Shown here: positions 21,943-43,668 of the stretch, piece by piece
Position numbering within the stretch: the stretch's first letter is position 1
Layout of the letters: each line of letters begins with the position of its first letter
Assembly: GCA_012729785.1 (NCBI GenBank)
Contig: JAAYCL010000031.1
Span: 1 to 64,000 of the forward strand
Direction: 5' to 3'
Origin: Chlamydiota bacterium
GTDB lineage: Bacteria; Auribacterota; Tritonobacteria; UBA1439
DNA: 64,000 nt
Made by a program: the position numbers and the translations under genes
Notes under the pieces: model-generated
The model's database searches: none
Told to the model about the DNA's origin: nothing
What the model saw: the letters and a program-made list of their open reading frames with translations, nothing else

Positions 21943-23124
21943 ATGGGATTTCCCGCAAGGAAGAAACTGTCCGGCGGATGGGCGAGGCGGGGCGGCGAAT
22001 CCCCCCTCGAGGTCGCGCGGCGCGCGCTCGCCCTGCCGCGCGAGGGGCCTCCCCCCGTCTGCCTGCTCCACGGCGAGGAGGGGTACCTCGTCGAGGAGAC
22101 GGCGCGCCGGCTCGCCGAGAAGCTCGTCCCCAAGGCGCAGCGCGAGTTCGGCATCGAGATCTTGAGCGGGCCCGGGGTCACCGCCGCCCAGCTCTCCGGC
22201 GCGCTCGGCTCGACGCCGCTCTTCGGCGCGGGGCCGCGTGCGGTCTGGGCCCGGGGGTGCGGGCTGCTCCGGGCGCGGGATCGCAGCGAGGCGGTCCTGC
22301 GCCTGGTGCCCGACAAAGGGCAGGGGATCACCCTCCTGATCACCGAGGAGGAGGTGGACGCGCGCCTCGCCTTGTACAAGGAGATCGCCCGGCGCGGCGC
22401 GGTGTTCAGGTTCGACCGGCTCTCCGACACCGACGACGCCCACCTGCGGAGTCTCCACGCCCTCGTCTCCGAGCGGCTGAAGGCCGGCGGGCACGGGATG
22501 GAACGCGACGCGCTCCTCTACCTCGTGCAGCTGGTCGGGACCGATCTCCGCGCCATCTTCGCGGAGATCGAAAAGCTCCAGCTCCACGCCGCGCCGGGAG
22601 CGAAGATCGGGAAGGGCGATATCGACCTGTTGGTCTGCCCCTCGCGCGAGTCGACGGCGTTCCAGCTCGCCGACGCGGTGACCGAGGGGGATCCGAAGCG
22701 CGCGCGCCTGCTGCTGCAGCAGGTGCTGCGGGGCGGCGTGCACCCTCTGGCGGTGCTGGCGACGCTCACCCAGCGCGTGCGCTTCCTCCTCCAACTGAAG
22801 GCGCTGCTGGACGAGGGGGGGGTGCGCGCCGCGTCGACCTACCCGGCGTTCAAGGCCGCGTTCGATCGGCTGCCGGATGCGTACCGCGAGGCGTACAAGG
22901 CCGCGGGGAAGAGGTATCGCGCCTACAGCATCTTCGGCCAGCACCCGTACGTCGTATTCAAGATGGCCGGGGCGGCGCGCAGGGGCCCGGCGTCGCGGCT
23001 GCGACTGCACCTCGACGCGCTCGTGAAGGCGGATGCCGAGCTCAAGCGGGAGGGGCGGCGGGCGCCGAGGGTGCTCGAGGACCTGGTGGCGGTGCTCTGC
23101 GGCGGGGGGGCGGTCAGGACCTGA
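21943..23124 (+). CDS. holA: DNA polymerase III subunit delta
   Basis: The product is 393 residues, somewhat longer than usual owing to a 35-residue basic N-terminal extension before the first strand (PPVCLLHGEEGYLVEETARRL). The AAA+-like fold of HolA is visible, with LLITEEEVDARLALYKEI, LVQLVGTDLRAIFAEIEKLQL, STAFQLADAVTEGDPKRARLLLQQVL and ALLDEGG. The delta subunit opens the sliding clamp during loading. It has no functional Walker motifs, as expected for delta. An internal start closer to the first strand is possible. Its stop overlaps the dnaA stop by 11 nt in convergent orientation. Confidence 0.88.
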   Translation: MGFPARKKLSGGWARRGGESPLEVARRALALPREGPPPVCLLHGEEGYLVEETARRLAEKLVPKAQREFGIEILSGPGVTAAQLSGALGSTPLFGAGPRAVWARGCGLLRARDRSEAVLRLVPDKGQGITLLITEEEVDARLALYKEIARRGAVFRFDRLSDTDDAHLRSLHALVSERLKAGGHGMERDALLYLVQLVGTDLRAIFAEIEKLQLHAAPGAKIGKGDIDLLVCPSRESTAFQLADAVTEGDPKRARLLLQQVLRGGVHPLAVLATLTQRVRFLLQLKALLDEGGVRAASTYPAFKAAFDRLPDAYREAYKAAGKRYRAYSIFGQHPYVVFKMAGAARRGPASRLRLHLDALVKADAELKREGRRAPRVLEDLVAVLCGGGAVRT

Positions 23125-24433
23125 TCGAGGTGACGAGACCGTCGACCATCTCCCGGGCGTCCGCGTTCCGCCGGAGGAGCTCCTCGATCGCGGCGCAGGC
23201 GTGCATCACGGTGGTGTGGTCGCGTCCCGCGAAGGCGGCGCCGATGTCGGCGTAGGGGGAGTTGACGAGGCGCCGGCAGAGGTACATGGCGACCTGGCGC
23301 GGGAAGACGACCAGCCGGCTCCTGGAGGGCCCGAGCAGCGTGCCCAACCGGACCTGAAAGTGGGCCGCGACCCGCTGCTGGATCCCCCGCGTCGTGACGC
23401 ACTGCGCGTCCCCGCCGAAGAAATCGTTCCTGAGCAACGCGTCCACCGCCTCGCGTTCCGGGACGCCGTCCCCGAACGATGCCCGCGCGGCGATCCTGTT
23501 GAGCGCCCCCTCCATCCGCCTGACGTTGGTCCTGATCTCGCTCGCCAACAGCATCAGCACGCTCCGCGGCAGCAGCATCCCCGCGCGCCGCGCCTTGCGT
23601 TCGAGTATCAGGAGACGGGTCGCGAGGGCCGGCTGCTTCAGCTCGATCACCGAACCGGATTCGAACCGGGAGAGGAGACGGCGGTGGAGCCGCGGGATCT
23701 CCCGCGGCGGCCGGTCGCTCGAGAGCACCACCTGGCCCCCCTTCTCCCGCACCGCCATGAAGAGCGCGAAGAACTCCTCCTGCACCTGGTTCTTGCCGGC
23801 GAGCGAGTGGACGTCGTCGACGAGCAGCAGGGTGAACGAGGAGAGGCGCTTCCGCACGCGCGCGATGGAACGGTTCCGGACCGCCTCCGTCAGCTCGTCC
23901 ATCAACAGGTCGCTCGGCGCGTAGGCGAAGGTGCATTCGGGGCGCGAGGAGACGCGCGCGCCGATGGCCTGGAGGAGGTGGGTCTTCCCGAGCCCCACGC
24001 CGCCGCTGATGAAGAGCGGATTGTGCGCGGCGCCCGGCTTGTCGGCGGCGGAGAGCGCGGCGCGGTGCGCGGCGCGGTTGCAGGAGCCGACCACGAACTC
24101 CTGGAAGGTGTAGGCCGGGTTGAGGACGGAAACGGGCGTGCGGCCGCGCGCGCCCTGCGGGGCGGGAGGCGCGGGGGCCGGTTCGAGGCCGCCGCGGGAG
24201 CGGACGAAGCCGACCTCCATCGTCGCGCCGGTCAAGGCGCGGGCGCAGCGGACGATCACGGAGAGGTAGCGGTCGCGCACGATGCGCTCGTGGAGGCCGT
24301 TGGGCACCTCGAGCAGAAGCGTTCCCGGCGGCGCCGGGAGCGGCCGCAGGGGCGCTATCCAGAGGGACATCGCCTCCCGGCCGAGGTTCCCCTCGAGGAG
24401 CTGCAGCAGATCAGTCCACAACGCGCGATGCAT
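23114..24433 (-). CDS. dnaA: Chromosomal replication initiator protein DnaA
   Basis: The product is 439 residues with the normal four-domain layout. Domain I covers about residues 1-75, domain II is a short Pro/Ala-rich linker, and domain III is the AAA+ ATPase, preceded by the NPAYTFQEFVVGSCNRAAH lead-in. Walker A is GGVGLGKTH (144-152) and Walker B is LLLVDDVHSL (202-211). Domain IV is the DNA-binding domain ending with the DnaA signature AGRDHTTVMHAC. It binds DnaA boxes and melts oriC. Its promoter and two DnaA boxes lie upstream at 24549..24628. holA, encoded on the opposite strand, is convergent. Confidence 0.97.
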   Translation of the reverse strand: MHRALWTDLLQLLEGNLGREAMSLWIAPLRPLPAPPGTLLLEVPNGLHERIVRDRYLSVIVRCARALTGATMEVGFVRSRGGLEPAPAPPAPQGARGRTPVSVLNPAYTFQEFVVGSCNRAAHRAALSAADKPGAAHNPLFISGGVGLGKTHLLQAIGARVSSRPECTFAYAPSDLLMDELTEAVRNRSIARVRKRLSSFTLLLVDDVHSLAGKNQVQEEFFALFMAVREKGGQVVLSSDRPPREIPRLHRRLLSRFESGSVIELKQPALATRLLILERKARRAGMLLPRSVLMLLASEIRTNVRRMEGALNRIAARASFGDGVPEREAVDALLRNDFFGGDAQCVTTRGIQQRVAAHFQVRLGTLLGPSRSRLVVFPRQVAMYLCRRLVNSPYADIGAAFAGRDHTTVMHACAAIEELLRRNADAREMVDGLVTSIRS

Positions 24434-24548
24434 CGCATCCCCCCGTGACGGATCCTCGGCGAACGGCCCGGGGCGGATCGGCGGAAGACGCGCCGCGTAA
24501 CGACCCGGCGCTCAACGGGATGCGGCGCGGCGCTGGAAAAACCGCCGC

Positions 24549-24568
24549 TTCTCCACAGCTTATCAACA
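24549..24568 (+). promoter_or_regulatory. Two adjacent DnaA-box-like 9-mers
   Basis: TTCTCCACA (24549..24557) and TTATCAACA (24560..24568) each match the DnaA box TTATCCACA at 8 of 9 positions, and are arranged head to tail. They lie in the dnaA leader, downstream of the -10 at 24601. They may serve autoregulation of dnaA or form part of oriC. Confidence 0.65.
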
Positions 24569-24600
24569 TCCGCATCCCGTCTCTCCGCTCACCGCGGCGG

Positions 24601-24628
24601 ATTATAGCCGCGTGGGGCGGGACGTCAA
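24601..24628 (-). promoter_or_regulatory. dnaA promoter
   Basis: On the minus strand TTGACG (24628..24623), a 16-nt spacer and a perfect TATAAT (24606..24601) give the best promoter match in the window. The transcript would start near 24594, leaving a leader of about 160 nt that contains the two DnaA boxes. Confidence 0.75.
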
Positions 24629-24775
24629 GGGGAAACAGAAAAAAGATTGCCGGCGCACATGGGATGGCGGAGGCGGACGCACGACAGCGAATAGTTTTAC
24701 ATTCCGATGACAACCCGCCCCGCCCGATGTGCGACGCTGTGTTCGAAAGGACGGGGGGCGGAGAGGAGGGGCGTA

Positions 24776-25447
24776 ATGAATCGGCCGTGGTGCGGGGCGG
24801 CGGCGGCGTTGCTGTTCTGCGCCGCCGCACGCGGGGAGACGGGCCTTCCGCCCGGTGCCGCTCCCGACGGAACCGAAACGACGCCCCCGCCCGGGGCCGC
24901 GGCGATCGACCGCCCCCCGCGCGGGGAGGATGAGGGCGCGTATACGCTGCGGGACGGCGCGATCCTGCTGGAGGAGCCGCGTCCCCCGACAGGATTGAAG
25001 CCGGACCGGGGTGTCGAGGAGGGGCCGGGAGCCGCGCCCGGCGGGGAGGGGGACGTCTTCATCATCGGCTTCGGCGGCGGAAGCGCGGCGGAGGAGGATC
25101 GCGAGGTGCTGAGACTCCAGCGGGAGCTGCTCGAGAGCCAGTTGGAGATGATCCGCGCGGCGCGCCTTCTCGCCGACCGCCATCTGCGTCTCGGCAGGCG
25201 GGCCGCCCGCATCGAGGGCGGGGCGCGAAACGTGCACGCCGGGATGATCGCCTCGCGGCAGGAGATCGACCCGCTGCGGGGGGAGGGCGCGCAGATGAGC
25301 GTCCAGACGACGCTCGTGGCGGAACGCACGACGCGCACCGCCGAGGCGGTGGAGGAGATGTCGGAGGCCCTCTCGGAATGCGCGGACGCGGCGGAGGATC
25401 TGGAGATGGAGTGCCATGAGACGCGCCGGGGGTTCCGAGGGGATTGA
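24776..25447 (+). CDS. Secreted coiled-coil protein, first of a paralogous set
   Basis: The product is 223 residues and I do not recognise the family. GAGAGGAGGGG precedes the ATG. A signal peptide (MNRPWCGAAAALLFCAAARG) is followed by a Pro/Gly-rich low-complexity segment to about residue 90. Then comes a short beta-like motif VFIIGFGGGSAAEEDRE and a long helical stretch LRLQRELLESQLEMIRAARLL continuing to the C-terminus in heptad-like order. The beta motif plus LxxQ helix recur in the next two proteins, so all three are paralogues. The C-terminal helix contains two Cys residues (SECADAAEDLEMEC). Periplasmic or surface location is inferred from the signal peptide. Confidence 0.8.
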   Translation: MNRPWCGAAAALLFCAAARGETGLPPGAAPDGTETTPPPGAAAIDRPPRGEDEGAYTLRDGAILLEEPRPPTGLKPDRGVEEGPGAAPGGEGDVFIIGFGGGSAAEEDREVLRLQRELLESQLEMIRAARLLADRHLRLGRRAARIEGGARNVHAGMIASRQEIDPLRGEGAQMSVQTTLVAERTTRTAEAVEEMSEALSECADAAEDLEMECHETRRGFRGD

Positions 25448-25514
25448 ACGGGAGAGGCCCCGGGGAGAGGGGGCGGGCATGGCGGTTCGACGACGCGTGT
25501 CGGGAGGAACGGCC

Positions 25515-26321
25515 ATGAGACATGGAATCCGTGCGGCGCTCGGCGCGGCGTGCCTCTGGGCCGCGGCGGCATCCGCCGCCGAATCCGCCCCCGCCTCGGC
25601 GGCCCCGCCGGCGCACCGCGGCGGCGACGCGGAGACGCAGCGGGCGTTCGAGGTGGTGGAGAAACTCCTGCGGGGCGAGCGTATCGGCGAACTCGAGCTG
25701 AAGAACCTCGACGACGCGATCGTCCGGATCGAGCCGGCGGGGGGCGGCGGGGGGATCTCGGTTCCGCGTGAGAACGGCGGCGGGGCTTCGAGAAACGTCT
25801 ACATCCTCCGTTTCGATTCCGCTTCGTCCGGCGAGCGGCGGATCCAGCTCCTCGGGCTGCAGCGGGAGATACTGAAGAACCAGCTCGTGCTCTTGAAGTC
25901 CCTGAGCGCCATCGCGAACTACCAGGTGAACCTCGGGACGCGGACCGCCCGTGTCGAGAACATCATGCGGGACGTGACGCTCGGGTTGAAGGACTCCGGG
26001 GTCGAGATCGGGAAGATCGCGGGCGACGTCGCCGGGGCGTCGGCGAAGATGACCGACGTCGCGAGCGCCAGCGCGGATATGGCCGAGGAGATGAAGAAGA
26101 TGGCCAGGAGCATCGACGACATCGAGGGCGCCATCGACAACGTTGACTCGATGATCAGGAGGATGGCGAGCGGCATCGAGAGCCAGGCGTTCAGCGATGG
26201 GGTCGCGATGCACAGAATCGGCCACGACATCGAGTCGGGGATCGGCTCCTTGGCGGACGGTATCTTCGATGAAAGCGAGGAACGGATGGACGAACTGGAT
26301 GAACGGTCTCCGGATGAATGA
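25515..26321 (+). CDS. Secreted coiled-coil protein, second of the paralogous set
   Basis: The product is 268 residues. GGGAGGAACGGCC precedes the ATG; the signal peptide ends near ASAAES. Residues 50-80 form a charged amphipathic segment (VVEKLLRGERIGELELKNLDDAIVRI). The shared motif follows as VYILRFDSASSGERRIQLLGLQ, then REILKNQLVLLKSLSAIANYQ and about 150 residues of coiled coil with Ala/Ser/Met-rich heptads (GDVAGASAKMTDVASASADMAEEMKKMA). That pattern resembles a chemoreceptor hairpin, but no methyl-accepting signature is present and the protein is exported. The C-terminus is acidic. It is the most helical of the three and could form the trunk of a fibre or spacer. The function is unknown. 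Confidence 0.8.
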   Translation: MRHGIRAALGAACLWAAAASAAESAPASAAPPAHRGGDAETQRAFEVVEKLLRGERIGELELKNLDDAIVRIEPAGGGGGISVPRENGGGASRNVYILRFDSASSGERRIQLLGLQREILKNQLVLLKSLSAIANYQVNLGTRTARVENIMRDVTLGLKDSGVEIGKIAGDVAGASAKMTDVASASADMAEEMKKMARSIDDIEGAIDNVDSMIRRMASGIESQAFSDGVAMHRIGHDIESGIGSLADGIFDESEERMDELDERSPDE

Positions 26322-26340
26322 ACGGCAGGAGGCGGCGAGG

Positions 26341-27027
26341 ATGGCCCGGATAACGGGAATCGCGGCGGGGGCCGTATGCGTGGCCGGGGCGGTTTTCGCC
26401 GTCCCTCCCGACCCGCCCCCCGCGGAGACGGAGGCACCGGTGCGGCGGATCGTCGAGCAGGCGCTTGACCGGGGGAGCAGGGTGATCGTCAAGCGGGTCG
26501 ACTACCGCGCCGGGGAGGGCGGCGAGGCGCCCGGGGTTCCGGAGGCGCCGGTGCGGAGCAGGACCTACATCGAGATCGATACGAGGCCCCCCGGCGCCGC
26601 CGGCGACCGGGAGCTGCTTGAGTCGCAGGTGCGGATCGAGGAGCGGCAGCGGGAGATCGGCGACTCCGTCGAGGCGATCGCGGCGGGACAGGAACGCGCC
26701 GCGGGGACCCTCCGTTCGGTCGAACGGCTCGGGCATGAGGTCTCCGGCGGGATGGGACGCGCTGCGGCGGAGGCCGATGCGCTCCGCGGGTCCGCGGCGG
26801 GCGCCGCCGTCCACGCGGGGGAGACGGCGGAGGCGGTCGCCGAGACGGATACGATACTGCGGCAGATCGAGATCGAGGCGAGGGAGCTCTCCGGGTCGAT
26901 CGACGCGCTCTCCGACAGGATCGGGCGGGAGGGGCGGAGGGCGGGGGTCCGCGCGCCGCCGATCCTTGGGGACGCGGCCAAAGGGTCGGCGTTCCGGTTC
27001 GAGGGCGACGGAGGGACGGGGAGATGA
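26341..27027 (+). CDS. Secreted coiled-coil protein, third of the paralogous set
   Basis: The product is about 228 residues. An ATG at 26341 follows AGGAGG with 8-nt spacing and begins MARITGIAAGAVCVAGAVFAV, a signal peptide; a start at 26314 would overlap the preceding gene. After a Pro/Glu-rich stretch the shared motif appears as TYIEIDTRPPGAAGDRELLESQ. It is followed by coiled coil (RIEERQREIGDSVEAIAAGQER, and a later helix ILRQIEIEARELSGSIDALSDRI). The gene ends with an ATGA overlap into the OB-like protein gene. No known family was recognised. Confidence 0.78.
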   Translation: MARITGIAAGAVCVAGAVFAVPPDPPPAETEAPVRRIVEQALDRGSRVIVKRVDYRAGEGGEAPGVPEAPVRSRTYIEIDTRPPGAAGDRELLESQVRIEERQREIGDSVEAIAAGQERAAGTLRSVERLGHEVSGGMGRAAAEADALRGSAAGAAVHAGETAEAVAETDTILRQIEIEARELSGSIDALSDRIGREGRRAGVRAPPILGDAAKGSAFRFEGDGGTGR

Positions 27028-27830
27028 ACGGGATCCGGGCAGGCGCGGCTGCGGTCGTCTTTCTCCTGTGCGCGGGGGCGTCGTCGGCCGACGACACGAT
27101 GCGGCGTTTCAGGGGGGACGCGTTGAACGACGGCGTGATCGGCGCCTATACCCTCGTCAACCGGCAGATCCTCGTCACCGACTTCATGGGGGAGATGCAG
27201 GCGAACTTCACGCCGGCGGAGCGGAAGCGGGGGCTCCGCGGGCCGTACTACTGCAAGTTCAACCTGCGGGACTCGAAACTCCGCTGCTTCGTATCGAGGT
27301 ACGACTCCAAGAACTTCCCGCGGCTGATGGCACTGAAGAAGAACGAGCGGGTGAGCGTCATCGGGCGGATCGAACAGCTCGCGCCGGGGGCCCGGGGGGT
27401 GCACAATCCGTACTACATCCTGCGGATCGGCCGGATCCGGCAGGGGTGGCTGCTCGAGGAGGACCAGGAGATCTTCGCGGACCTCGACGAGGCCGTCGCC
27501 TGCACGGATGTTTCGCCGCAGGAGATCGCGGCGCGCCCGGAGGAGTACGCGGGCGAGTACCTGCGGGTCAGGGACGGTTTCTCGATCCCCTCGACGCTCT
27601 TCACCGGCCTTGAGCGCGACCTCAACCTGGATCCCCGACGCGCGCTGAAGTTCTACCTCGAGAACTTCGCGACGCCCTGCTACCTCTTGAACACCCCGGA
27701 AAACAAAAAAGTTCTCGAGGCGCTCGCCTCCGGCGACCGGGTGACCGTCTCGGGGCGGCTCAACTGCATCCCCGCGGCGGACGACGTCCTGTACCTGTTC
27801 TCGGTGCGCGAGATCAGACCGGGGTGGTGA
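27024..27830 (+). CDS. Secreted protein with two OB-like segments
   Basis: The product is 268 residues. A signal peptide (MNGIRAGAAAVVFLLCAGASSA) precedes a soluble body. Two stretches look like OB-fold cores: ERVSVIGRIEQLAPG..HNPYYILRIGRI and DRVTVSGRLNCIPAADDVLYLFSVREI, each with a central V(S/T)V.GR strand. Between them is a helical segment around DVSPQEIAARPEEYAGEYLRV. The pattern resembles other bacterial periplasmic OB-like proteins of unknown role; a similar element occurs in the membrane protein at 59847..60275. It is translationally coupled to the last coiled-coil gene, so the four proteins probably work together. Confidence 0.78.
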   Translation: MNGIRAGAAAVVFLLCAGASSADDTMRRFRGDALNDGVIGAYTLVNRQILVTDFMGEMQANFTPAERKRGLRGPYYCKFNLRDSKLRCFVSRYDSKNFPRLMALKKNERVSVIGRIEQLAPGARGVHNPYYILRIGRIRQGWLLEEDQEIFADLDEAVACTDVSPQEIAARPEEYAGEYLRVRDGFSIPSTLFTGLERDLNLDPRRALKFYLENFATPCYLLNTPENKKVLEALASGDRVTVSGRLNCIPAADDVLYLFSVREIRPGW

Positions 27831-27850: not shown

Positions 27851-28282
27851 CTACCCGCGCGCGTGTTTGCGGACGACCTTGCAGATGCCCCTGCCGAGCC
27901 GCGCCAGCAGGCGCTGGAACGACCGGTCTCCGCGGAGGAGGGCGAAATCGTCGTCCCGCACGAGGTGCGCGAGGTCCCGGTAGCCGAGCTCTATCGACCG
28001 TTCGAGACTCTCGAGCGCCTCCTTCTTGCGGGAGGTCAGGCAGTAACTGCAGGCGAGATTGTAGTGGACGATCGGGTCGTTCGGGCACAGCGCGCTGAGC
28101 CGCCGGTCGATCTCGAGCCCCTCCGCGTAGAGTCCCTTGCGCGTGTAGGCCTCCCCGAGGAGCATCAGCGCATCGACATATGCGGGCGCATGCGCTACAA
28201 TACCCCCGTAGAATTCGATCTCGAAGTCGAGGCAGGCCCCTTCGCCCGGGGGCGCGGGACCGCGGCGTGCGATGTCTCTCAC
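27851..28282 (-). CDS. Small TPR-repeat protein
   Basis: The product is about 143 residues from a GTG at 28282 preceded by GGAGG; a GTG at 28309 would extend it by nine residues but overlaps the putative -10. TPR-like helices are seen at VDALMLLGEAYTRKGLYAEGL and VHYNLACSYCLTSRKKEALESLERSIELGY. The C-terminus, DDDFALLRGDRSFQRLLARL, is the usual ending of TPR proteins of this kind. There is no signal peptide. TPR domains mediate protein contacts; the partner is unknown. The gene is convergent with the secreted coiled-coil operon (20 nt gap) and divergent from the M20 peptidase gene. Confidence 0.8.
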   Translation of the reverse strand: MRDIARRGPAPPGEGACLDFEIEFYGGIVAHAPAYVDALMLLGEAYTRKGLYAEGLEIDRRLSALCPNDPIVHYNLACSYCLTSRKKEALESLERSIELGYRDLAHLVRDDDFALLRGDRSFQRLLARLGRGICKVVRKHARG

Positions 28283-28299
28283 GACCACCTCCAGATTGA

Positions 28300-28328
28300 T
28301 GGTTAGCACGGATCGGGGGCGATGTCAA
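28300..28328 (-). promoter_or_regulatory. Possible promoter of the TPR gene
   Basis: On the minus strand a perfect TTGACA (28328..28323) is followed after 17 nt by a poor -10, TAACCA (28305..28300). It lies in the short region shared with the M20 peptidase gene. Confidence 0.4.
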
Positions 28329-32666: not shown

Positions 32667-33185
32667 ATGATCCATGGTGCCGTTCGCGTCCTTGCGGCCG
32701 GGGCGCTCTGCGTGCCCGCCCTCGCCTTCGCCCAGCCGCGGGTGAAGGGGGCGGAGGGCGTGGCCAAAGCGGAGGCCATCATCGAGGCCGGGAAGGTGGC
32801 GCCGGCGGAGTTCAGCAAGGCAGCCGAGGTCATCAAGGCCGGGAACGAGGCGCTCCAGAAGGGCGATGAGGCGAACGCCTACTGCTACTTCGAGGAAGGG
32901 GTGATGCGGCTCAACGAGCTCAAGAGCAGGTTCCCCGACTGGGAGCGGGACACGGTGATGAAGCAGATCGTGAACACGCTCGAGGTGAAGAACAAGCTCG
33001 TCGCCACCACCTGCCAGAACCTGGAGGAGATGAAGGAGGCCCGCTTCCGCTTCGAGGTCTGGCAGCGCCAGGTCGTGATGCTCAGGAAGCTCGACCTCAT
33101 CCAGGAGCAGCTCAACCGGATGGAGAAGCTCCAGGACAAGCACGACGAGTACATAAAGGATATCAGGGACACGCTGCGGCGCTAG
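32667..33185 (+). CDS. Secreted helical protein of unknown function
   Basis: The product is 172 residues with AAGGAGGTGCGTG before the ATG. The signal peptide ends at ALAFAQP. The remainder is predicted helical: SKAAEVIKAGNEALQKGDEANAY resembles a single TPR-like hairpin, and the last 60 residues (LRKLDLIQEQLNRMEKLQDKHDEYIKDIRDTLRR) are coiled coil. One Cys (ANAYCYF) and a second (ATTCQN) could form a disulphide. No family was recognised. It is not a close homologue of the coiled-coil set at 24.8-27.0 kb but is similar in style. Confidence 0.78.
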   Translation: MIHGAVRVLAAGALCVPALAFAQPRVKGAEGVAKAEAIIEAGKVAPAEFSKAAEVIKAGNEALQKGDEANAYCYFEEGVMRLNELKSRFPDWERDTVMKQIVNTLEVKNKLVATTCQNLEEMKEARFRFEVWQRQVVMLRKLDLIQEQLNRMEKLQDKHDEYIKDIRDTLRR

Positions 33186-34927: not shown

Positions 34928-35509
34928 TCAGCGTCTCCGAGAACGCGGTTTCTTCGCGGGTGCATCCCTGTCGTCGGCCCCGTCGCGTCGCTCCGCCTTC
35001 GTGATCGTGGAGGCATCGAGGGCCACGTCGAGCAGGTGCGAGTCGGCGGAATCAACGCCGATCGAGAGGACCTTGACCGTCATCAGGTCGGGCGAGTTCT
35101 CGATGCGGTACAGGTACCCGACGAGCCTGGCGAGGGGGACCCGTTTGAGCGTGACCCTGGCCGTCTCCTCCTGGAATCCTCCCTCCAGCGGTTTCTTCTC
35201 CATCTGGATCGCCTCGGTGGAGAGCCCCTCCTCCCGCGCGATCTCGCTCAGGGAGACGTACGGGTTGAATTCGTTCGTGCGCTGGGCGAGCCGGGCCCGG
35301 ATGTCGCCGATCTCCCGGTCCAGGGCGCCGAAACGGGCGGCGCTGCGGCGCGCGAGGCGCACATCCCGCCGCATTGCGGGCGTCTCCGTGCGTATCCGGT
35401 CGTAGTAGCCCAGAAGCGGGCTCACGGCGAACTGGATGAGGAGAAACAGGGCGATTGCGACCGCGGCGGCGGCGATGAGCTTCTTCTCGCGCGGGGCGAG
35501 CTTCTTCAT
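34928..35509 (-). CDS. gspM: GspM/PilO-like type II secretion assembly protein
   Basis: The product is 193 residues. A short cytoplasmic N-terminus (MKKLAPREKK) is followed by one membrane helix (LIAAAAVAIALFLLIQFAV), a periplasmic coiled coil (MRRDVRLARRSAARFGALDREIGDI) and a ferredoxin-like domain (ARVTLKRVPLARLVGYLYRIENS...LMTVKVLSI). This matches GspM/PilO, which pairs with GspL/PilN in the inner-membrane platform. The ATG overlaps the preceding gene's stop by 4 nt. The C-terminus is basic and disordered. Confidence 0.82.
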   Translation of the reverse strand: MKKLAPREKKLIAAAAVAIALFLLIQFAVSPLLGYYDRIRTETPAMRRDVRLARRSAARFGALDREIGDIRARLAQRTNEFNPYVSLSEIAREEGLSTEAIQMEKKPLEGGFQEETARVTLKRVPLARLVGYLYRIENSPDLMTVKVLSIGVDSADSHLLDVALDASTITKAERRDGADDRDAPAKKPRSRRR

Positions 35510-37143
35510 CGCGCCGCCGCCTTTCGTATCGTCGCCATGAGCTTGAACTTCTGCTTGGCGCCGCTGGCGGTGGTGGAGGGGACATCCACCGACTCGAAGT
35601 AGGGCGACGTCTTGAGCGCCATCTTGATCTTGTCCGCGTCGCCGGCGTTGTCGATGAGGCCGGTCATCTCCACCTCCTCCTGCCCGATCGTGAGGTCGGT
35701 GACCCACGCCTTCAGATCGGGCGGGATGCGCTCGCTGATCTCCCGCAGGATCTCGAGCGAGGAGACCCCCGTCGGGGCGAGGGAGAAGAAGCTCTTGTGG
35801 GCCTCGCGGTACTGTCTGATCCTCTTCTCCATCTCGTCGGCGACGGCGGCGGGCCCGACTGCGGGGCCGTCGGGGAACGTCTTGCGGTAGATGCGTTCGA
35901 GCTCGCCCGCGAGCGCGGCGTGCTCCTGCCGCACCGCGGTGAACGAGGCGGCGAAGCGCCAGCCCGCCACCCCGGCGAGGAGGAGGAGGAGGAGCGCCGC
36001 GACGGCGAGCGGGCGCCCGGCCCTGCCCAGCCCCCCGCCCCAGGAGAACTCCTCCCTGCGGAGGTTCACCTGCGCCTTCTCGAACCCGAGGCCCTGCACG
36101 GCGAGGCCCGCGGCGACCGCCGCCGGGCACATCTCCTCGTCGGGCGGCGATCCCGCGAAAGGCGAGAGGGAGGAGAGGTAGTCAGCGCGGCAGTTGAACT
36201 CCTTCGCGAAGAGTTCGCGCGACCCCCGGAGCAGCGCCCCGCCCCCGGAGAGAAGGACGCGCGACACCTCCGAGCCGGTCAAGGTCGCGGAGATGGAGCG
36301 GAGGCTGCGGTCGATCTCGCGATTGAGGCGCGTGAGCACCGGGTTGATCGCCTTCTGCATCCTTGCCTCCGCCGGCGGCGTGTCCGCCCCCGGCAGCGCC
36401 CCCCCGCGCTCCCTCTTCAGCGCCTCGGCGGCGGAGAAGTCGAGTGTGCACTCGTTCTGGATCGCCTCGGTGACGTCGTCCCCGCCGACGTTGATGTTCC
36501 TGGCGAGCAGCACCGTCGTTCCCCGGACGATGACCAGCAGCGTTTTCGTCGCTCCGATGTCGACGAGCATCGCCAGTTCGTCCGCCGGGACGTCCCCCGC
36601 CCTGAGGAGGTAGTTGTTGGCCAGGGCGAGCGCGTCGAGGCCGACGATCTCCGGGTCGACCCCCCCGTCGGCGAGGATCTGGAGGTGCCGGGCGACCAGC
36701 TCCTTCTTGGCCGCGATGATGAGGACGGGGGTCCTGTTCTCCTCGGCGGCCCGTGTTTCGTGGAAGTCGACCAGCACCTCCTCGATGGGGAACGGGATGA
36801 GCGGCTCGGCCTGGAACCGTATCACCTGGCGGATCTTGCTTGTCCCGCGGAACGGGACGACCGTGTTGCGCACGAGGGCCGAGTAGAGAGGGAACGCGCT
36901 GACGAACCTGTCCGCGCGGATCCGGTGCTCCTTCAACAGCGCCGCGACCGCCGCCGAGAGGGCCTCGAGGGAGGGACGCGCCGCCGTCTCGCGCGGGATC
37001 GCGGCCGTGTAGACGCCGGTGATCACCGCGCGCCGCCCCTTCCGCCGCATCGACACCGCCTTGATGCCGTTGGTCCCGAGGTCGATGCCAAGCGGCATCC
37101 GGGCGCCTCCGCCCGACAGCCATTCCATTATCCGCGCCTTCAC
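35506..37143 (-). CDS. gspL: PilM-PilN fusion serving as GspL
   Basis: The product is 545 residues. Residues 15-340 are a PilM-type actin-like ATPase with phosphate-1 motif GIDLGTNGIKAV, a phosphate-2-like VDIGATKTLLVIV and the adenosine loop LLSGGGALLRG. A membrane helix lies at about 382-402 (LAVAALLLLLLAGVAGWRFA). The periplasmic end is PilN-like: coiled coil, then LEILREISERIPPDLKAWVTDLTI and a ferredoxin-like fold. GspL proteins have this overall layout, but their cytoplasmic domain is usually degenerate; here the nucleotide motifs look intact as in type IV pilus PilM. It overlaps gspK and gspM by 4 nt each. Confidence 0.85.
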   Translation of the reverse strand: MKARIMEWLSGGGARMPLGIDLGTNGIKAVSMRRKGRRAVITGVYTAAIPRETAARPSLEALSAAVAALLKEHRIRADRFVSAFPLYSALVRNTVVPFRGTSKIRQVIRFQAEPLIPFPIEEVLVDFHETRAAEENRTPVLIIAAKKELVARHLQILADGGVDPEIVGLDALALANNYLLRAGDVPADELAMLVDIGATKTLLVIVRGTTVLLARNINVGGDDVTEAIQNECTLDFSAAEALKRERGGALPGADTPPAEARMQKAINPVLTRLNREIDRSLRSISATLTGSEVSRVLLSGGGALLRGSRELFAKEFNCRADYLSSLSPFAGSPPDEEMCPAAVAAGLAVQGLGFEKAQVNLRREEFSWGGGLGRAGRPLAVAALLLLLLAGVAGWRFAASFTAVRQEHAALAGELERIYRKTFPDGPAVGPAAVADEMEKRIRQYREAHKSFFSLAPTGVSSLEILREISERIPPDLKAWVTDLTIGQEEVEMTGLIDNAGDADKIKMALKTSPYFESVDVPSTTASGAKQKFKLMATIRKAAAR

Positions 37144-38432
37144 CGGTCCACTCCCCAGAACAGCACCCGCGTCACCGCATCGTCGTCGCGCCGGACGTAC
37201 GCGCGCAGCTGCGCGACCGAATCGTTCACCTGTCCGCGGGAGATGATCTGCACGCAGTCGCTCCCGACGCCGATCTTGGCCCTGAAGCTCGCGGGCACGT
37301 GCTCTCCCATCTTCTCCGCGAACTCCGCCAGATCCTTGAAATAGTCCCTGCGGGTGTGGGCGACGATATCCCTGACGAGGGACTCGTTCTCCTCCGGGAG
37401 AAGCGCCGCGAGCACCTCCGGCGGGGCGGTGTTCACGTTCACCTTGCTTCCGGAGAAGACCGTGAGACAGTCCTGAAGGCCGGTCCCGCCCCGCCGCGGC
37501 CCCCTCCGCTCCATCTCCGCGCCGAGGTCGACCGTCTCCGGCCTGCCGGGGCCGAAGAACAGGTCCCCGGTGACGCCCTTGATCATCAGGAGTTCGGAGA
37601 GCACGTCGAGAGGGGCGTTTTTCGGAGGCGGTCCGTCGTCGTAGGCGTCGTCCTCCCAGTCGCCGTCGTCGTTGGAATCCATCCAGTCGACGATGGCGGC
37701 GGTCACCTTCTCCTCGTCGACGCTGCGGACGTCGAGGCTTTTGATGAGCTTCATGATATCCTTCTCGGCGTTCTTGTCAACAACATAGCGCACCGGCTCC
37801 GGCGTCGGCGTCCCCTCCGCCTGCTCCGCCGCCTCCTCGCCGGTTTTGTCCGGGTCCTTCTGTCCCCAGGCCCGCGGCGGCGGCTTCGGCGTCGCCTCCG
37901 GGGGAGGGCAGTCCTCGCACGGGGTCGGCGTGGGGGTGGCGGCGCGCGGCATCGGCCGCTGCTCCTTGACGAGCGTGTTGACGTTGAACTTGCCGCTCTC
38001 GTCGACGACCTTGAGCGTGAGGGATCCATCCCCGAACGGTTCCTGGACCCGCTCCCGCGCCCACTCCTCGCCGTAATGGTCCGGGAACGGGACGTCGCGC
38101 AGGACGCCGCCCGGGGAGCGTCTCCCCGCCGTCACCTGCTCGATGAAGGAGCTCCCCGTCTCCGACGGCCGTCCCTTCTCCTCGTCCTCGCGCTCCTTCT
38201 CCTCCAGTTCGCGCAGGCGGTCGTCGCGGAGCAGGGCGACCGTCTCATGGACCCCGGCCAGGGCGATGCCGAGGGCCAGCAGGTCGTCGCGGCATGTCGA
38301 GGCGATATGGTGCTCGACGCGTGTCGCGTAGTTGAACTCCAGCGCCAGGACGGTGAAGAGCGTGACGATGAAGAGCACCATGATGAGGATGACGCCCCGT
38401 TCGCCGCGCCTGGTATGCGTTGCATCGGGCAT
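37140..38432 (-). CDS. gspK: Type II secretion minor pseudopilin GspK
   Basis: The product is 430 residues. A basic leader ends at RRGERG, followed by the hydrophobic helix VILIMVLFIVTLFTVLALEF, which lacks Glu at +5, as is typical for GspK. The large alpha-domain carries the GspK DESGKFNVNTLV motif and SGSKVNVNTAPPEVLAALLP. A Pro/Thr-rich insert (PTPTPCEDCPPPEATPKPPP) is unusual. An Asp-rich loop (DSNDDGDWEDDAYDDG) may bind calcium, as in GspK of other species. GspK caps the GspI-J-K tip of the pseudopilus. It sits between gspJ and gspL, with a 4-nt overlap to gspL. Confidence 0.88.
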   Translation of the reverse strand: MPDATHTRRGERGVILIMVLFIVTLFTVLALEFNYATRVEHHIASTCRDDLLALGIALAGVHETVALLRDDRLRELEEKEREDEEKGRPSETGSSFIEQVTAGRRSPGGVLRDVPFPDHYGEEWARERVQEPFGDGSLTLKVVDESGKFNVNTLVKEQRPMPRAATPTPTPCEDCPPPEATPKPPPRAWGQKDPDKTGEEAAEQAEGTPTPEPVRYVVDKNAEKDIMKLIKSLDVRSVDEEKVTAAIVDWMDSNDDGDWEDDAYDDGPPPKNAPLDVLSELLMIKGVTGDLFFGPGRPETVDLGAEMERRGPRRGGTGLQDCLTVFSGSKVNVNTAPPEVLAALLPEENESLVRDIVAHTRRDYFKDLAEFAEKMGEHVPASFRAKIGVGSDCVQIISRGQVNDSVAQLRAYVRRDDDAVTRVLFWGVDR

Positions 38433-38458
38433 AAGGTCGTCCCTGTCGGCGTCCTGTC

Positions 38459-39259
38459 TCAGTCCGGTCTCGGCGTGGGCGTGAGCGTCGTCCCCGGGGC
38501 GGGCGTGGGCGTGGGCTCCTCTTCCTCCTCCCAGCTCCCGCCGAGGGGGATCGATGTCTCGGTGCGGAACGTGCTAAGGCGCACCGCCTCTTCGCCCGCT
38601 TCGCCGCCGCCTTCCCGCCCGGTCGCCATCGTGAGTGTCACGCGGACGGCGCGGGGGAGGGAGTCGTCCACGCGCGAATCCCACGACGCAACCCACCCGC
38701 CGTCGCCGAGGTACTCGAGGTCGAAACCCGCGACCCCCTCGCCGATCGCCCTCGTCTCGCCGCCGGAGAACGGATCCTCGTCGAGGGACGGGTCCTCCCG
38801 GCGCAGCAGGTACCCCTCGGGGTCGAGGGAGTAGGCCACCTCGGAGAGGACGCTCTCGCGCGCGTCCCTCTCCGAGCGCAGGTGCGTGGCGGCGATGAAG
38901 GTCACCGAGTCCGCGCCGGGCGCATCCCCGCCGTCGTCGCCCACGAAGACGAGGTACTCCTTTCCGCCCCGCAGGAAGGCGCAGGAGAAATCGCCGGATA
39001 TGCGGTCGAGCATCAGCCGCGCCATCGTCGTCTGCTCCATATCCTCCTGGGACGCATAGATGATCCGCAGGGCGCCGCGGTAGGATGCGTAGATGACCCC
39101 GGCCACGATGCTGGTGATGAGGATCGCCACCAGCACCTCGGCGATCGTGAACCCGGAAGAGGGGCCGAAGGGGAGGCGGGGACGCCTGCGGCCGGGCGCG
39201 CACCGGGCGCGCGCGGCCCCTCCGGCGTCTGGGCGGGTCATGCTTGAACGGTGCCGCAT
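38459..39259 (-). CDS. gspJ: Type II secretion minor pseudopilin GspJ
   Basis: The product is about 266 residues from an ATG at 39259, which has GGAGGAGACG upstream; another start 13 codons earlier is possible. The leader is unusually long and basic (about 30 residues) before the prepilin site SSG-FTIAEVLVAILITSIVAG, with Glu at +5. The globular domain has LMLDRISGDFSCAFL and FDLEYLGDGGWVASWDSRVDDSLPRAVRVTLTM, typical of GspJ. The C-terminal tail is a TPTPAPGTTLTPTPRPD repeat like those in the propeller proteins. Confidence 0.87.
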   Translation of the reverse strand: MRHRSSMTRPDAGGAARARCAPGRRRPRLPFGPSSGFTIAEVLVAILITSIVAGVIYASYRGALRIIYASQEDMEQTTMARLMLDRISGDFSCAFLRGGKEYLVFVGDDGGDAPGADSVTFIAATHLRSERDARESVLSEVAYSLDPEGYLLRREDPSLDEDPFSGGETRAIGEGVAGFDLEYLGDGGWVASWDSRVDDSLPRAVRVTLTMATGREGGGEAGEEAVRLSTFRTETSIPLGGSWEEEEEPTPTPAPGTTLTPTPRPD

Positions 39260-39301
39260 CGTCTCCTCCGGATCCCGGACGGCGCGCCGATGCGCCATCC
39301 T

Positions 39302-39739
39302 TCAGCCCGCCGCCTCCGCCAACTCCTCCTCCTCGATCTCCTCCTCCCCCGGGTCCGCCACGCAGCTGGTGACGGTGACCCCCCCGATCGCCGGCGCGTC
39401 GCCGTCGCCGCCGGCGGGGATGAGCGCGACCTGGACCGTCACCTCGCGGAGCCCCTCAAGGGCGGTCTCGCGCACGGTGACGAGGTAGCCGTACCCCTCG
39501 AGGTCGCCGAAGGTCCCCTCCTCCTCGCCCGGGGGGGGGAACTCCCCCGAGAGGATCTCGGCGAGCTTCTGTCGGGCGAGGAGGGTCGAGACGGTCGTCG
39601 CCTTGGCCTCGGCGTAGGTGCGGGTGCTCGCGGCCTGCGTCGCGAGGAGGGCGCCCATCGCGATGGCGACGATCACCGTCGCCACCATCACCTCGACCAG
39701 CGTGAACCCCCCGGTGCGGCGCGCGGCCGATCGCATCAT
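39302..39739 (-). CDS. gspI: Type II secretion minor pseudopilin GspI
   Basis: The product is 145 residues. The prepilin cleavage site is RTGG-FTLVEVMVATVIVAIAMGALL with Glu at +5. The segment ARQKLAEILSGEFPPPGEEEGTF is the GspI signature helix, and the C-terminus is strongly acidic. It overlaps the stop of gspH by 4 nt and precedes gspJ by 42 nt. GspI nucleates the tip complex with GspJ and GspK. Confidence 0.85.
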   Translation of the reverse strand: MMRSAARRTGGFTLVEVMVATVIVAIAMGALLATQAASTRTYAEAKATTVSTLLARQKLAEILSGEFPPPGEEEGTFGDLEGYGYLVTVRETALEGLREVTVQVALIPAGGDGDAPAIGGVTVTSCVADPGEEEIEEEELAEAAG

Positions 39740-40278
39740 AGCCCCCCGAATGTGCGCGCCGTCGACTCGTCGTCGTACACGGCGGTCCGGCCCCCGTACG
39801 GCTTCAAATGGATCGAGCAGGACCGGCGCCGGGCCTGGTCGCCGAGACGGAGAACCGCCTCCTCGTTTTCGCCGCGGGCGAAGAAGCCGATGCGCCGCGT
39901 GCCGCGCGACCGCCCTCCCCCCCTCCCCACCACCTCCACGCCGCGTATGAGGATCCCCGGGGCGAGGAGGTGCGGGCGGGCGAGGGCGGTGGAGAGCTCC
40001 GCCTGCCTGCGCCCGCCCTCGTCGACGGTGACCCAGTAGCTGTCCCCCCCGACGTCGAGGTTCAGGTAGTGCGCCCTGCCGGTCCGGGCCGCCTCGCTGC
40101 TCAGGTAGCGCGCGGCCGCGGCGAGCCGGCGCGCCTCGCTGCGCAGCCCGCCGCGCGTGAGCATCCCCCCGTAGCGCGGGAGCGCGATCGCGACGACAAG
40201 CGCCACGATCAGCAGCGCCACCGCGAGCTCGATGAGGGTGAAGCCGCGCCTAGCGGAGGTAGTTCGCGATATCGTCAT
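39736..40278 (-). CDS. gspH: Type II secretion pseudopilin GspH
   Basis: The product is 180 residues. The leader MTISRTTSARRG-FTLIELAVALLIVALVVAIALP contains the prepilin peptidase site and Glu+5. GspH-type features follow: LRSEARRLAAAARYLSSEAARTGRAHYLNLDVGGDSYWV. The start overlaps the 3' end of gspG by 29 nt, so a slightly later start cannot be excluded. GspH is a minor pseudopilin between the GspG shaft and the tip. Confidence 0.83.
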   Translation of the reverse strand: MTISRTTSARRGFTLIELAVALLIVALVVAIALPRYGGMLTRGGLRSEARRLAAAARYLSSEAARTGRAHYLNLDVGGDSYWVTVDEGGRRQAELSTALARPHLLAPGILIRGVEVVGRGGGRSRGTRRIGFFARGENEEAVLRLGDQARRRSCSIHLKPYGGRTAVYDDESTARTFGGL

Positions 40279-40621
40279 CGCCGCCGATGGAGCCGTCCGG
40301 TCCCCCCGACACGATGTCGAAGTCCTTGTTGTGCGAGCCGGGGAAGGCGTAGGTGTACGGATTCCCCCACGGATCCTTCGGCACCTCGTCGAGGTAGTCG
40401 GGGACGAGCGCCTCGAGCGAGGACGGGTAGACCGAGTTGTTCTCGAGGTAGTAGTGCTGGAGCGCCTGCTCGAAGTTCGCGATCTGCACCTTCGCGGTTT
40501 GGATCTTCGCGGGCTTGATGCGGCGCATCACCTTCGGGGCGACGAGCCCCACGAGAAGGCCGAGGATCACCATCACCACCAACAGCTCGATGAGCGTGAA
40601 GCCGTTCCTGCGTTGCGTCAT
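40250..40621 (-). CDS. gspG: Major pseudopilin GspG
   Basis: The product is 123 residues. The leader MTQRRNG-FTLIELLVVMVILGLLVGLVAP has the cleavage site and Glu+5. The body shows the GspG consensus: KIQTAKVQIANFEQALQHYYLENNSVYPSSLEALV, DPWGNPYTYAFPG and a C-terminal calcium-site-like SGGPDGSIGGDDDIANYLR. It is the main subunit of the secretion pseudopilus. No prepilin peptidase (GspO) gene is in the window. Confidence 0.95.
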   Translation of the reverse strand: MTQRRNGFTLIELLVVMVILGLLVGLVAPKVMRRIKPAKIQTAKVQIANFEQALQHYYLENNSVYPSSLEALVPDYLDEVPKDPWGNPYTYAFPGSHNKDFDIVSGGPDGSIGGDDDIANYLR

Positions 40622-40667
40622 CGCGCACCTCCTTGGACTTGAAGCCGCCCCGCGTCTGCGGCGGCGG

Positions 40668-41888
40668 TCACTGCACCATCTGGTTCATCTCGAAGATCGG
40701 CATCAGGATCGCGAAGACGATGAATCCCACGACCCCCCCGAGGGCGATGATCATCGCGGGCTCCAGGAGCGACACGAGGGCCACGACGGAGTTCTCCACC
40801 TCCCCGTCGTAAGAGTCGGCGACGTTCTGGAGCATCTCCTCGAGGCGGCCGCTCGTCTCGCCGACGGCGATCATGTGCGTCACGATCGGGGGGAACACCC
40901 CGCTGGCGGCGAGCGGCTCCGCGATCGACTTGCCGGCCCCCACCGCCTCGCCTGCGCCGTCGAGCGCGCGCGCAAGCACCTCGTTGCCGACGACCTCGCG
41001 GACGATCCCCATCGCCTTGAGGATCGGGACGCCGCTCGCGGTCAGGATCGAGAGGGTGCGGGCGAGGCGCGAGACGGCCATCTTGCGCGTGAGGGGGCCG
41101 AAGACGGGGAGGCGGAGCTTCAGCCGGTCGGCGAAGAGGCGCGCGGCCGGGCGGCGCACGATCCGCCTGAAGAGGAAGACGGCCCCCGCCCCGGCGGCGG
41201 CGAGCGCCCACCAGTAGCCCTTCATGAAGCCGCTCACCGCCAGCAGGGCGAGCGTCGGCCCCGGGAGCTGCTGCTTGGTTTCCACGAAGACCTTGGTGAT
41301 CGTCGGGACCACGAAGGCGAGGAGGATCCCCACCGCCAGCACGCCGATCACCGCCATGAAGATCGGGTAGACCATCGCCGAGCGCACCTTGTTCTGCAGG
41401 GCGAGGCTCTTCTCGTTGAAGACCGCCAGCCGATCGAGGATGACGTCGAGGGCGCCCGCGGACTCGCCCGCCCGCACCATGTTCACATACAGGGGGGTGA
41501 AGATCTTCGGGTGCTTCCCCAGGGCGTCGGCGAGCCCCACGCCGCGGTTCACCGCCTCGCGGACCTCGATGATGGCGGGCCTGAAGGGGCTGTCGCCGAG
41601 CTGTTCCTCGATGGCCTGGAGGGAGCGGACGAGCGGCAGCCCGGCCTTGAGGAGCGTGGCGAGCTGCCGGGTGACCACGGCGATCTCGCGCGTTCCGACG
41701 CGCCTGAAGAGCGCCTTCAGGTTCACCTGCGTGCTGAGGCTGATCCCCTTCTCCGTCTCGCGCACCTCGACGGCGAAGAGCCCCTGGGCGCGCAGGCGGG
41801 CGCGGGCGTCGCGGGCGGAGTCGGCGTCGATCACCCCGGCCGCCGACTTCCCCCCTTCGTCGAGCGCCTTGTACTTGAATGCGGGCAC
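40668..41888 (-). CDS. gspF: Type II secretion inner-membrane protein GspF
   Basis: The product is 406 residues. It begins MPAFKYKALDEGGKSAAGVIDADS and has two T2SSF domains of about 120 residues, each with the LxxGxPLxxxL/ASGVPILKAM helical pattern and GE(S/T)SG(A/R)L. They are separated by membrane segments (MVYPIFMAVIGVLAVGILLAFVVP), with a final helix IIALGGVVGFIVFAILMPIFEM. GspF forms the platform beneath the pseudopilus and contacts GspE and GspL. Confidence 0.95.
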   Translation of the reverse strand: MPAFKYKALDEGGKSAAGVIDADSARDARARLRAQGLFAVEVRETEKGISLSTQVNLKALFRRVGTREIAVVTRQLATLLKAGLPLVRSLQAIEEQLGDSPFRPAIIEVREAVNRGVGLADALGKHPKIFTPLYVNMVRAGESAGALDVILDRLAVFNEKSLALQNKVRSAMVYPIFMAVIGVLAVGILLAFVVPTITKVFVETKQQLPGPTLALLAVSGFMKGYWWALAAAGAGAVFLFRRIVRRPAARLFADRLKLRLPVFGPLTRKMAVSRLARTLSILTASGVPILKAMGIVREVVGNEVLARALDGAGEAVGAGKSIAEPLAASGVFPPIVTHMIAVGETSGRLEEMLQNVADSYDGEVENSVVALVSLLEPAMIIALGGVVGFIVFAILMPIFEMNQMVQ

Positions 41889-41937
41889 GGGCCTACCGTT
41901 TCTGGTTGCTCGTCTCTCGTTGGCAAAGGAGAGGGGC

Positions 41938-43668
41938 TCAGACCTCGAAGACCTCCTCCTGGGTGATGCGCAAAACCTCCTCGATCGTCGTGATCCCCTT
42001 GGCGACCTTCTGCGCCCCGTCGCCCCTGAGGGTGAGCATCCCCTTTCCGAGCGCCGTCTTCTTGATGACGTTGGAGGAGATCCGGTCGAGCACGAGCTGG
42101 CGTATCTCGTCGTCGATGACGAGGAGCTCGAAGATCCCGCTCCTGCCGCGGTAGCCGGTCCCCATGCAATGGTCGCATCCCTTCCCGCGGGAGACGGTGC
42201 CGTCGGGAAGGTCCGCGGGGGAGAGGCCGAGCGCCCGCAGCGTCTCGGGCGGGGGGACGTAGCGCTCCCGGCACTTGGGGCAGATCACCCGCACGAGCCG
42301 CTGGGCCATGATGGCGATGACCGAGGAGGAGACGAGGAACGGCTCGACCCCCATGTCGATGAGGCGGGTGATCGCCCCCGCGGCGTCGTTCGTGTGGAGG
42401 GTCGAGAAGACGAGGTGGCCGGTGAGCGAGGCCTGGATGGCGATCTCGGCGGTCTCCAGGTCGCGGATCTCCCCCACCATGATCACGTCGGGGTCCTGCC
42501 GGAGTATATGGCGGAGGCCGCTCGCGAAGGTCAGGTTGATCTTCGGCTTCACGTGGATCTGGCCGATCCCCGGTATCTGATACTCGACCGGATCCTCGAT
42601 GGTGAGGATGTTCCGGTCCTCGGTGTTGATCCTGCTGAGGGCGCCGTAGAGGGTCGTGGACTTGCCGCTCCCGGTGGGGCCGGTGACGAGGATGATCCCG
42701 TACGGCAGCGCGATGAGGCGGCTGAACCGCTCGAGCTTGTCGGGGCTGAACCCCATCTCCTCGAGGCCGTAGAACATCGCGCCGCGGTCGAGGAGCCGCA
42801 TCACCACGCGCTCGCCGTGCACGATCGGGATGGTGGAGACGCGCAGGTCGATCTCGCGGTCGGGCATCTTGATCTTGATCCTGCCGTCCTGGGGGAGTCG
42901 TTTCTCGGCGATATTCATGTTGGACATGATCTTCACGCGGGAGATGATCGCCGACTGGTAGCGCTTCGGGGGGCTCAGGGTGTTGTGGAGCACGCCGTCG
43001 ATCCGGAAGCGTATCTTCAGCTCCTTCTCGTACGGCTCGATGTGGATATCGCTCGCCCGCGATTTGGCGGCCTGGTAGATCATCAGGTTGACGAGCTTGA
43101 TGACCGGGGCCTTGTCGTCGAGGTCCATCAGGTCCTCGGCCGCCTGCTCGGAGAGGTCGAAGACCCTCTCCCCCCCCGCCTCCTTCTCGGCCCCCATGTC
43201 CTCGATGAGTTCCTCCGCGGCGCTCTCGGCGTGCATGTAGACGGTGTTGATCAGGTGGCTGATCTCGGCCGCCCTGGCGATCGCCACGTGCGTCTCGCAC
43301 TCGAGGATGAGCCCGATGTCGTCGAGCGGCTGGGTGTTGAGCGGGTCGGCGGTCGCCACGACGACCGCGTCGCCCTCGCGCCGGAGCGGGACGATCTGGT
43401 GCGCCTGGGCGAAGGTGCGCGGGACGCGCCCGATGAGCTCGCGGTCGGCGCTCTCGGGGGGGAGGGATTTCAGGAACGGGAGGCCGAACTGCTCGCTCAG
43501 GGCCTGGAGGAGGTCGTCCTCCTTGATGTAGGAGAGGGCGATCAGGATGTCGCCGAGCCGCTTGTCGGAGTTCTCCTGCTTGGCGAGCCCCTCGTCGAGC
43601 TGGTCGGGGGTGAGGCAGCCGTTCTTCAGGAGTATCTGCCCGATGAGTTTCCTGCTCGTCGCCGACAT
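41938..43668 (-). CDS. gspE: Type II secretion ATPase GspE
   Basis: The product is 576 residues. The N-terminal GspE domain (MSATSRKLIGQILLKNGCLT) is followed by the ATPase. Walker A is GPTGSGKSTT (about 330-339), the Asp box is TEDRNILTIEDPVEYQI, Walker B lies at DPDVIMVGEIRDLETAEIA, and the His box follows at TGHLVFSTLHTNDA. The zinc tetracysteine element is CPKCRERY...CDHCMGTGYRGR. It hydrolyses ATP on the cytoplasmic side to drive pseudopilus assembly. It lies 31 nt after gspD and 49 nt before gspF. Confidence 0.96.
   Translation of the reverse strand: MSATSRKLIGQILLKNGCLTPDQLDEGLAKQENSDKRLGDILIALSYIKEDDLLQALSEQFGLPFLKSLPPESADRELIGRVPRTFAQAHQIVPLRREGDAVVVATADPLNTQPLDDIGLILECETHVAIARAAEISHLINTVYMHAESAAEELIEDMGAEKEAGGERVFDLSEQAAEDLMDLDDKAPVIKLVNLMIYQAAKSRASDIHIEPYEKELKIRFRIDGVLHNTLSPPKRYQSAIISRVKIMSNMNIAEKRLPQDGRIKIKMPDREIDLRVSTIPIVHGERVVMRLLDRGAMFYGLEEMGFSPDKLERFSRLIALPYGIILVTGPTGSGKSTTLYGALSRINTEDRNILTIEDPVEYQIPGIGQIHVKPKINLTFASGLRHILRQDPDVIMVGEIRDLETAEIAIQASLTGHLVFSTLHTNDAAGAITRLIDMGVEPFLVSSSVIAIMAQRLVRVICPKCRERYVPPPETLRALGLSPADLPDGTVSRGKGCDHCMGTGYRGRSGIFELLVIDDEIRQLVLDRISSNVIKKTALGKGMLTLRGDGAQKVAKGITTIEEVLRITQEEVFEV

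Follow-up and report, generated by a model that had tools for sequence, protein, structure and literature searches.

The question raised by this locus was whether four close-set genes, each encoding a protein with a signal-like N-terminus, form one envelope system and, if so, of what kind. The window (the whole 64,000-nucleotide stretch analysed) is contig C31 of a 45-contig, 2.59-Mb assembly that is 96.6% complete (G000). It was compared within a class sample of seven genomes, in which G000 to G005 belong to family f1 and G006 to family f2, and within a wider sample of 44 Auribacterota genomes. When named genomes were searched with a profile of the fourth protein, three relatives were retrieved, all of them Candidatus Auribacterota MAGs and one of them Candidatus Tritonobacter lacicola; a scan of named genomes with the single sequence gave no match. 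The gene set was not described in the literature searched, which included that on the phylum Auribacterota.

Gene set and predicted export

The genes were recovered exactly by a simple codon-usage gene caller and an ORF listing, and the initial annotation of four co-directional, close-set genes with signal peptides, the last two overlapping, was correct in its coordinates and genes. All four lie on the forward strand. Gene A (24776-25447, 223 aa) encodes a predicted signal peptide, a Pro/Gly-rich linker, a Q-x6-Q head (Q115/Q122) and a short coil. Gene B (25515-26321, 268 aa) encodes a predicted signal peptide, an N-terminal helix, a conserved strand-like motif (NVYILRFD), a Q-x6-Q head (Q116/Q123), a conserved G-M/L hinge near residue 157 and a long coil to about residue 260. 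The product of gene C (26341-27027, with a possible start at 26314; 228 aa) has a predicted signal peptide, the motifs VIxKRVDY and TYIEID, and a Q-x6-Q head (Q96/Q103) followed by coil; it forms one single orthologous group. That of gene D (27024-27830, 268 aa) has a predicted signal peptide and two OB folds (residues ~45-142 and ~160-266). Genes A and B are separated by 67 bp, and B and C by 19 bp, or by an 8-bp overlap if C begins at 26314. The stop of C and the start of D overlap as ATGA, and the same overlap was found in G003, G004 and G005 (four genomes in all).

A hydrophobic, signal-like N-terminal stretch was present in all four proteins, and export via signal peptides is predicted from this N-terminal hydrophobicity only. 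No lipobox Cys was seen at the signal-peptide ends of A to D by inspection. Between relatives at 42-62% protein identity, B, C and D differed least at the second codon position, which argues that they are real, selected proteins. Constraint was greatest in D, with second-position differences of 0.19-0.28 and third-position differences of 0.40-0.57.

None of the four proteins reached a family in profile searches of Pfam, NCBIfam and PHROGs, as the initial annotation had anticipated; the findings that would have spoken against it, such as strong hits to unrelated known families, were not encountered. Identity with phage tape-measure or tail-fibre proteins was considered and rejected. The matches were sub-threshold and confined to coil (TMP_N, E = 0.011; phrog tail fibre, 0.044), and there were no phage genes near the set.

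Homology and coiled coils of A, B and C

A search with B retrieved A of the same genome at 2e-15 and, with values of 2e-6 to 8e-6, the C proteins of two relatives. In the reverse direction, a C profile picked up A as well as B of the same genomes, with values of about 1e-5 to 6e-18. In hhalign, the A/B alignment scored 95.6 against the C alignment, compared with 25.3 for the reversed control and at most 30.8 for 60 heptad-block shuffles; these controls ruled out coil composition as the cause of the likeness. The homologous part comprises the LL.xQ head motif and the coil; no match was obtained between the N-terminal regions of the B and C proteins. By these profile comparisons A, B and C are homologous, and the layout they have in common is a consequence of homology.

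Across the alignment of all 13 A, B and C proteins, invariance was limited to the initiator Met and to the Gln-x6-Gln pair at the head of the coil, spaced by exactly one heptad. A near-invariant Gly-Met followed about 34 residues past the second Gln. Counting of heptads would place both Gln at core (d-like) positions. The 3.5-residue periodicity of family f1 B proteins was equalled by 0-1 of 200 shuffles (0/200 for B of the window) and that of all C proteins by 0-2 of 200; it was weaker in B of G006 (9/200). For A, 22/200 shuffles were as periodic in the window, where the signal is weak on its own sequence, and 0/200 in A of G003 and G006. Judged by this periodicity, B and C are coiled-coil proteins whose heptad repeat goes beyond chance.

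The first three proteins had been described as sharing a Pro/Gly-rich segment, a short beta motif and then a coil. The head and coil of that layout stood as homologous regions. The Pro/Gly-rich segment was not conserved in relatives, and its P+G content was 38% in A, 22% in B and C, and 12% in D. The beta motif, including NVYILRFD in B, was conserved in sequence among relatives, but the AlphaFold model of B (eight sequences; low confidence, pLDDT 62 and pTM 0.30) consisted of two long helices with no strand at NVYILRFD, and the motif is therefore treated as a conserved sequence pattern and not as a confirmed strand. In G005, B (L031 4490-5215) carries an in-frame TAG near its N-terminus and lies at a contig end, which may reflect an assembly error or decay.

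A marginal relative of B was found in other Auribacterota families. This protein, A5, is a secreted coiled-coil protein of 253-262 aa (L098 7137-7916, L035 2528-3289, L107 1477-2259 and L108 556-1344), which matched the B profile with a probability of 63 and a score of 38.9, compared with at most 29.1 for shuffled sequences, and gave reciprocal matches of 3e-7 and 1e-5. Like B, it has a signal peptide, an N-terminal helical part, a KIE-type strand-like motif, a Q-rich head and a long coil. Unlike B, it is single-copy in families f9 and f12, adjoins a TPR gene at three of its four loci and has no D partner that we could see. Trimeric autotransporter adhesins resemble A to C in having heptads with polar core residues, and weak, coil-only matches to solved structures were obtained; however, A to C are without the head, the anchor and the YadA-like translocator domain, and the likeness is generic to coiled coils. 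A Pfam scan of A to C and their relatives detected no YadA-type anchor or head domains, and the proteins end in coil or a low-complexity tail.

Gene D and the secreted OB family

The AlphaFold model of D contained two beta-rich domains, the second with pLDDT of about 80-94 and the first less certain. Foldseek matched the model to single-stranded DNA-binding proteins and to the anticodon-binding OB domains of Asp/Asn-tRNA synthetase (E down to 2.7e-5, probability 0.99-1.00). The TM-scores normalised by D were 0.22-0.30 and the identities ~10-20%, so that the likeness to solved structures is at fold level only. In the viral library the matches were to lipoproteins and to CcmE-like, tRNA_anti-like and SSB proteins. 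The two halves of D matched each other by profile with a probability of 88. The second domain is thus confidently modelled as an OB barrel and the first is predicted to be homologous to it with less certainty; the two OB-like segments first noted in the sequence were borne out, with high confidence in the second domain only.

Curated OB families stayed under their cut-offs for D. PF01336 gave E = 0.14 with D of the window, and the best values among its orthologues were 0.0064 for PF01336 and 0.025 for PF12869, both under the gathering cut-offs; PF12869 was above cut-off nowhere in the class. The proteins of these families (tRNA_anti-like, PF12869, and tRNA_anti-codon, PF01336) and the OB lipoprotein 3F1Z, all weak profile hits, are like D in having an OB fold in an exported protein. 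The value for 3F1Z was E = 0.45, and D is set apart by its two domains and by having no lipobox.

A full-length paralogue of D was found in a GlyA-linked, tandem-OB secreted protein, A6 (G000:C20:7713-8603, L102; hhalign probability 99.3, score 142). Orthologues of A6 (L038, L039, L099, L100 and L101) brought its occurrence to all six better-covered class genomes, including G002, which has no D. In most cases the A6 gene is flanked by glyA on one side and by a PpiD/SurA-like gene on the other. Like D, A6 has a signal peptide and two OB domains; unlike D, it adjoins glyA/purH and the PpiD/SurA-like gene rather than coiled-coil genes, and it is itself undescribed. D is therefore neither unique to the set nor an orphan. 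Since D also matched, by profile, shorter single-OB secreted proteins of the class and of family f9, the sequence comparisons place it as a branch within a family of secreted OB proteins that has expanded in this lineage and has no name in any curated library. In four class genomes the short single-OB relatives adjoin, or lie one gene from, PLD-like (HKD) secreted proteins (L037 8126-9748, L033 1358-3818, L036 9358-11903 and L030 2171-3976); the PLD-like call came from a Pfam scan for the L036 protein and was made by eye for the other three.

Distribution, loss and the status of gene A

B, C and D occurred together in five of the seven class genomes (G000, G003, G004, G005 and G006), in both families, so that the co-occurring sets which the initial annotation suggested looking for do exist. 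Among the rest of the 44 Auribacterota genomes there was no strong match to B, C or D, the weak matches being to the f9/f12 coil family or to coil only. The B-C-D order is kept between the two families at 25-36% identity.

The conserved right-hand neighbour is a convergent gene for a TPR protein (TPR_2; 27851-28309, reverse strand), with an M20-type peptidase beyond it. These two genes were found on one side of the set in all set-bearing f1 genomes, with at least three genes, including one for an ABC transporter, intervening in G004. The left-hand neighbour in G000 and G004, as well as in the set-less G002, is a second dnaA (dnaA2; 23114-24433, reverse strand). In G002 (94% complete), an empty gap of ~270 bp separates dnaA2 from the TPR gene, and A to D are all missing, with no B, C or D elsewhere in the genome. 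G002 and the set-bearing G005 have the same assigned genus, and this clean absence of the block indicates that the set can be inherited and lost and is not core. Absence of the set from G001 is uninformative, as this genome is 80% complete and its TPR gene lies at a contig end. Vertical inheritance within the class, with loss as a block, is supported by these comparisons.

Of the earlier proposal that the set is chromosomal core and not cargo, only the second half held. Mobile cargo was rejected: searches of plasmids with D and of phage records with B gave no match, and both the flanking genes and the pattern of inheritance speak against it. Core status fell with the empty site in G002. Nor could the nearby dnaA be used as an argument. 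It is a paralogue that has diverged from the canonical DnaA (41% identity; G000:C27:62365-63657) and has complete DnaA domains. The canonical gene lies with dnaN, gyrB and gyrA on another contig, and keeps such company in relatives too. Every class genome searched carried two dnaA genes, apart from the fragmentary G001 (one found). As the adjacent copy is the second, divergent one, its proximity has no particular bearing on the set, which in G003 and G006 lies away from dnaA and stays together though its position relative to dnaA2 has changed.

Gene A was present in G000 and G003 and absent from G004; the contig of G005 ends at that place. A of the window and A of G003 were 33% identical, with differences of 0.44, 0.46 and 0.51 at the three codon positions. 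In G006, two B-like genes were each other's closest relatives (support 98/96), which means that B was duplicated separately in the two families or that the copies were homogenised. By these sequence measures A is a dispensable, fast-evolving, weakly constrained duplicate of B. To speak of a four-gene set was therefore an overstatement, and the core is B-C-D.

Proposed mechanism and alternative readings

We propose, at close to an even chance, that the set specifies a complex special to this Auribacterota class and situated outside the cytoplasm: a hetero-oligomeric coiled-coil stalk on which an OB subunit serves for binding. The fibre or spacer with a binding module put forward in the initial annotation is likewise a proposal. 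A to D would be exported by the Sec pathway and remain soluble, most likely in the periplasm. B and C, with A in some species, would align in register through the Gln-x6-Gln head and zip into a hetero-oligomeric stalk of presumptive stoichiometry, with a bend at the conserved Gly-Met hinge. The tandem OB-fold subunit D, whose translation is coupled to that of C, would sit on this stalk and bind a partner, either a polymer or a protein; its attachment, its ligand and the physiological role of the complex are conjectural. The stalk is favoured by the B-C-D order in two families, the C-D overlap, the joint absence in G002, the OB folds of D, the A/B/C homology beyond coil bias, the heptads of B and C, and the strongest constraint being in D, and also by the position of the Q-x6-Q pair, which is the same in the paralogues whose pairing the model requires. 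Counted against it were the poor model of B, the dispensability and weak constraint of A, and the prediction of export from hydrophobicity. Other members of the D family lie away from coiled-coil genes, and D may thus act independently. A bolder version, in which B and C (with optional A) form the stalk of an undescribed class-specific envelope machine, with buried glutamine layers as its register and D recruited from the expanded OB family, we regard as doubtful.

The OB folds of D would also suit the handling of nucleic acid or another polymer in the periplasm, where D, as would the other members of its secreted OB family, would bind an oligosaccharide or single-stranded nucleic acid that is being taken up or scavenged, with the coils as its scaffold. 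The nearest solved structures point this way, as do the weak scores of OB nucleic-acid families on D-family members and the short D relatives next to PLD-like proteins. This reading is nonetheless unlikely, since the resemblance of D to those structures is confined to the fold, OB domains bind many kinds of ligand, PLD-like proteins may be phospholipases too, and no nuclease or uptake gene belongs to the set. A pure spacer or scaffold, in which the coils would set a distance or link envelope layers with D as an adaptor without a small ligand, seems about as improbable. The long helices, the lack of enzymatic motifs in A to C, and the lineage-restricted, losable nature of the set would fit it, but no lipidation, peptidoglycan-binding or membrane anchor was seen that could tether the ends, and D is the most conserved member, which suggests a specific surface.

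The same retention of B-C-D order at 25-36% identity, together with the conserved C-D overlap, the block absence in G002 and the cohesion of the set despite its changed position relative to dnaA2, makes it quite unlikely that there is no functional unit, that drift has merely kept neighbouring genes together and that D works by itself, as its GlyA-linked paralogue would. What speaks for that reading is the occurrence of D paralogues elsewhere without coiled coils and the coming and going of gene A.

The genes are new as a set and restricted to the class, and their products are of familiar types. They probably specify an envelope complex peculiar to this lineage, and nothing more dramatic. For a phylum in which experimental work is very scarce, the analysis delimits a small group of predicted exported proteins that lends itself to testing, sets its conserved core (B-C-D) apart from a dispensable duplicate (A), and ties it to a broader, hitherto undescribed family of OB proteins secreted in Auribacterota. 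Annotation and the cell biology of this lineage are likely to benefit, and no known principle is overturned; interest is modest, because the components are generic and sequence does not reveal what they do.

Intergenic region and nearby genes

The divergent intergenic region (24434-24775) contains a promoter-like site for dnaA2, TTGACG-16-TATAAT, at 24628-24601 on the reverse strand; no promoter consensus was found for gene A in this region. A DnaA-box-like site lies upstream of dnaA2, as TTATCAACA at 24560 in the window and as TTATCCACA in G002, G003 and G004. The two sites together suggest that dnaA2 may be under DnaA-responsive control.

Further along the window, 32667-33185 encodes a secreted, helical protein of 172 aa, conserved in G001 and G002, that adjoins a predicted phosphatase/mutase-like gene. 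No Pfam family was above cut-off for this protein, and profile comparison gave no support for its being a further A/B/C paralogue. A type II secretion/type IV pilus-like cluster lies near the set on the reverse strand (34928-45775); by eye, its content includes PilM-like, pseudopilin, GspF, GspE and GspD-like genes.
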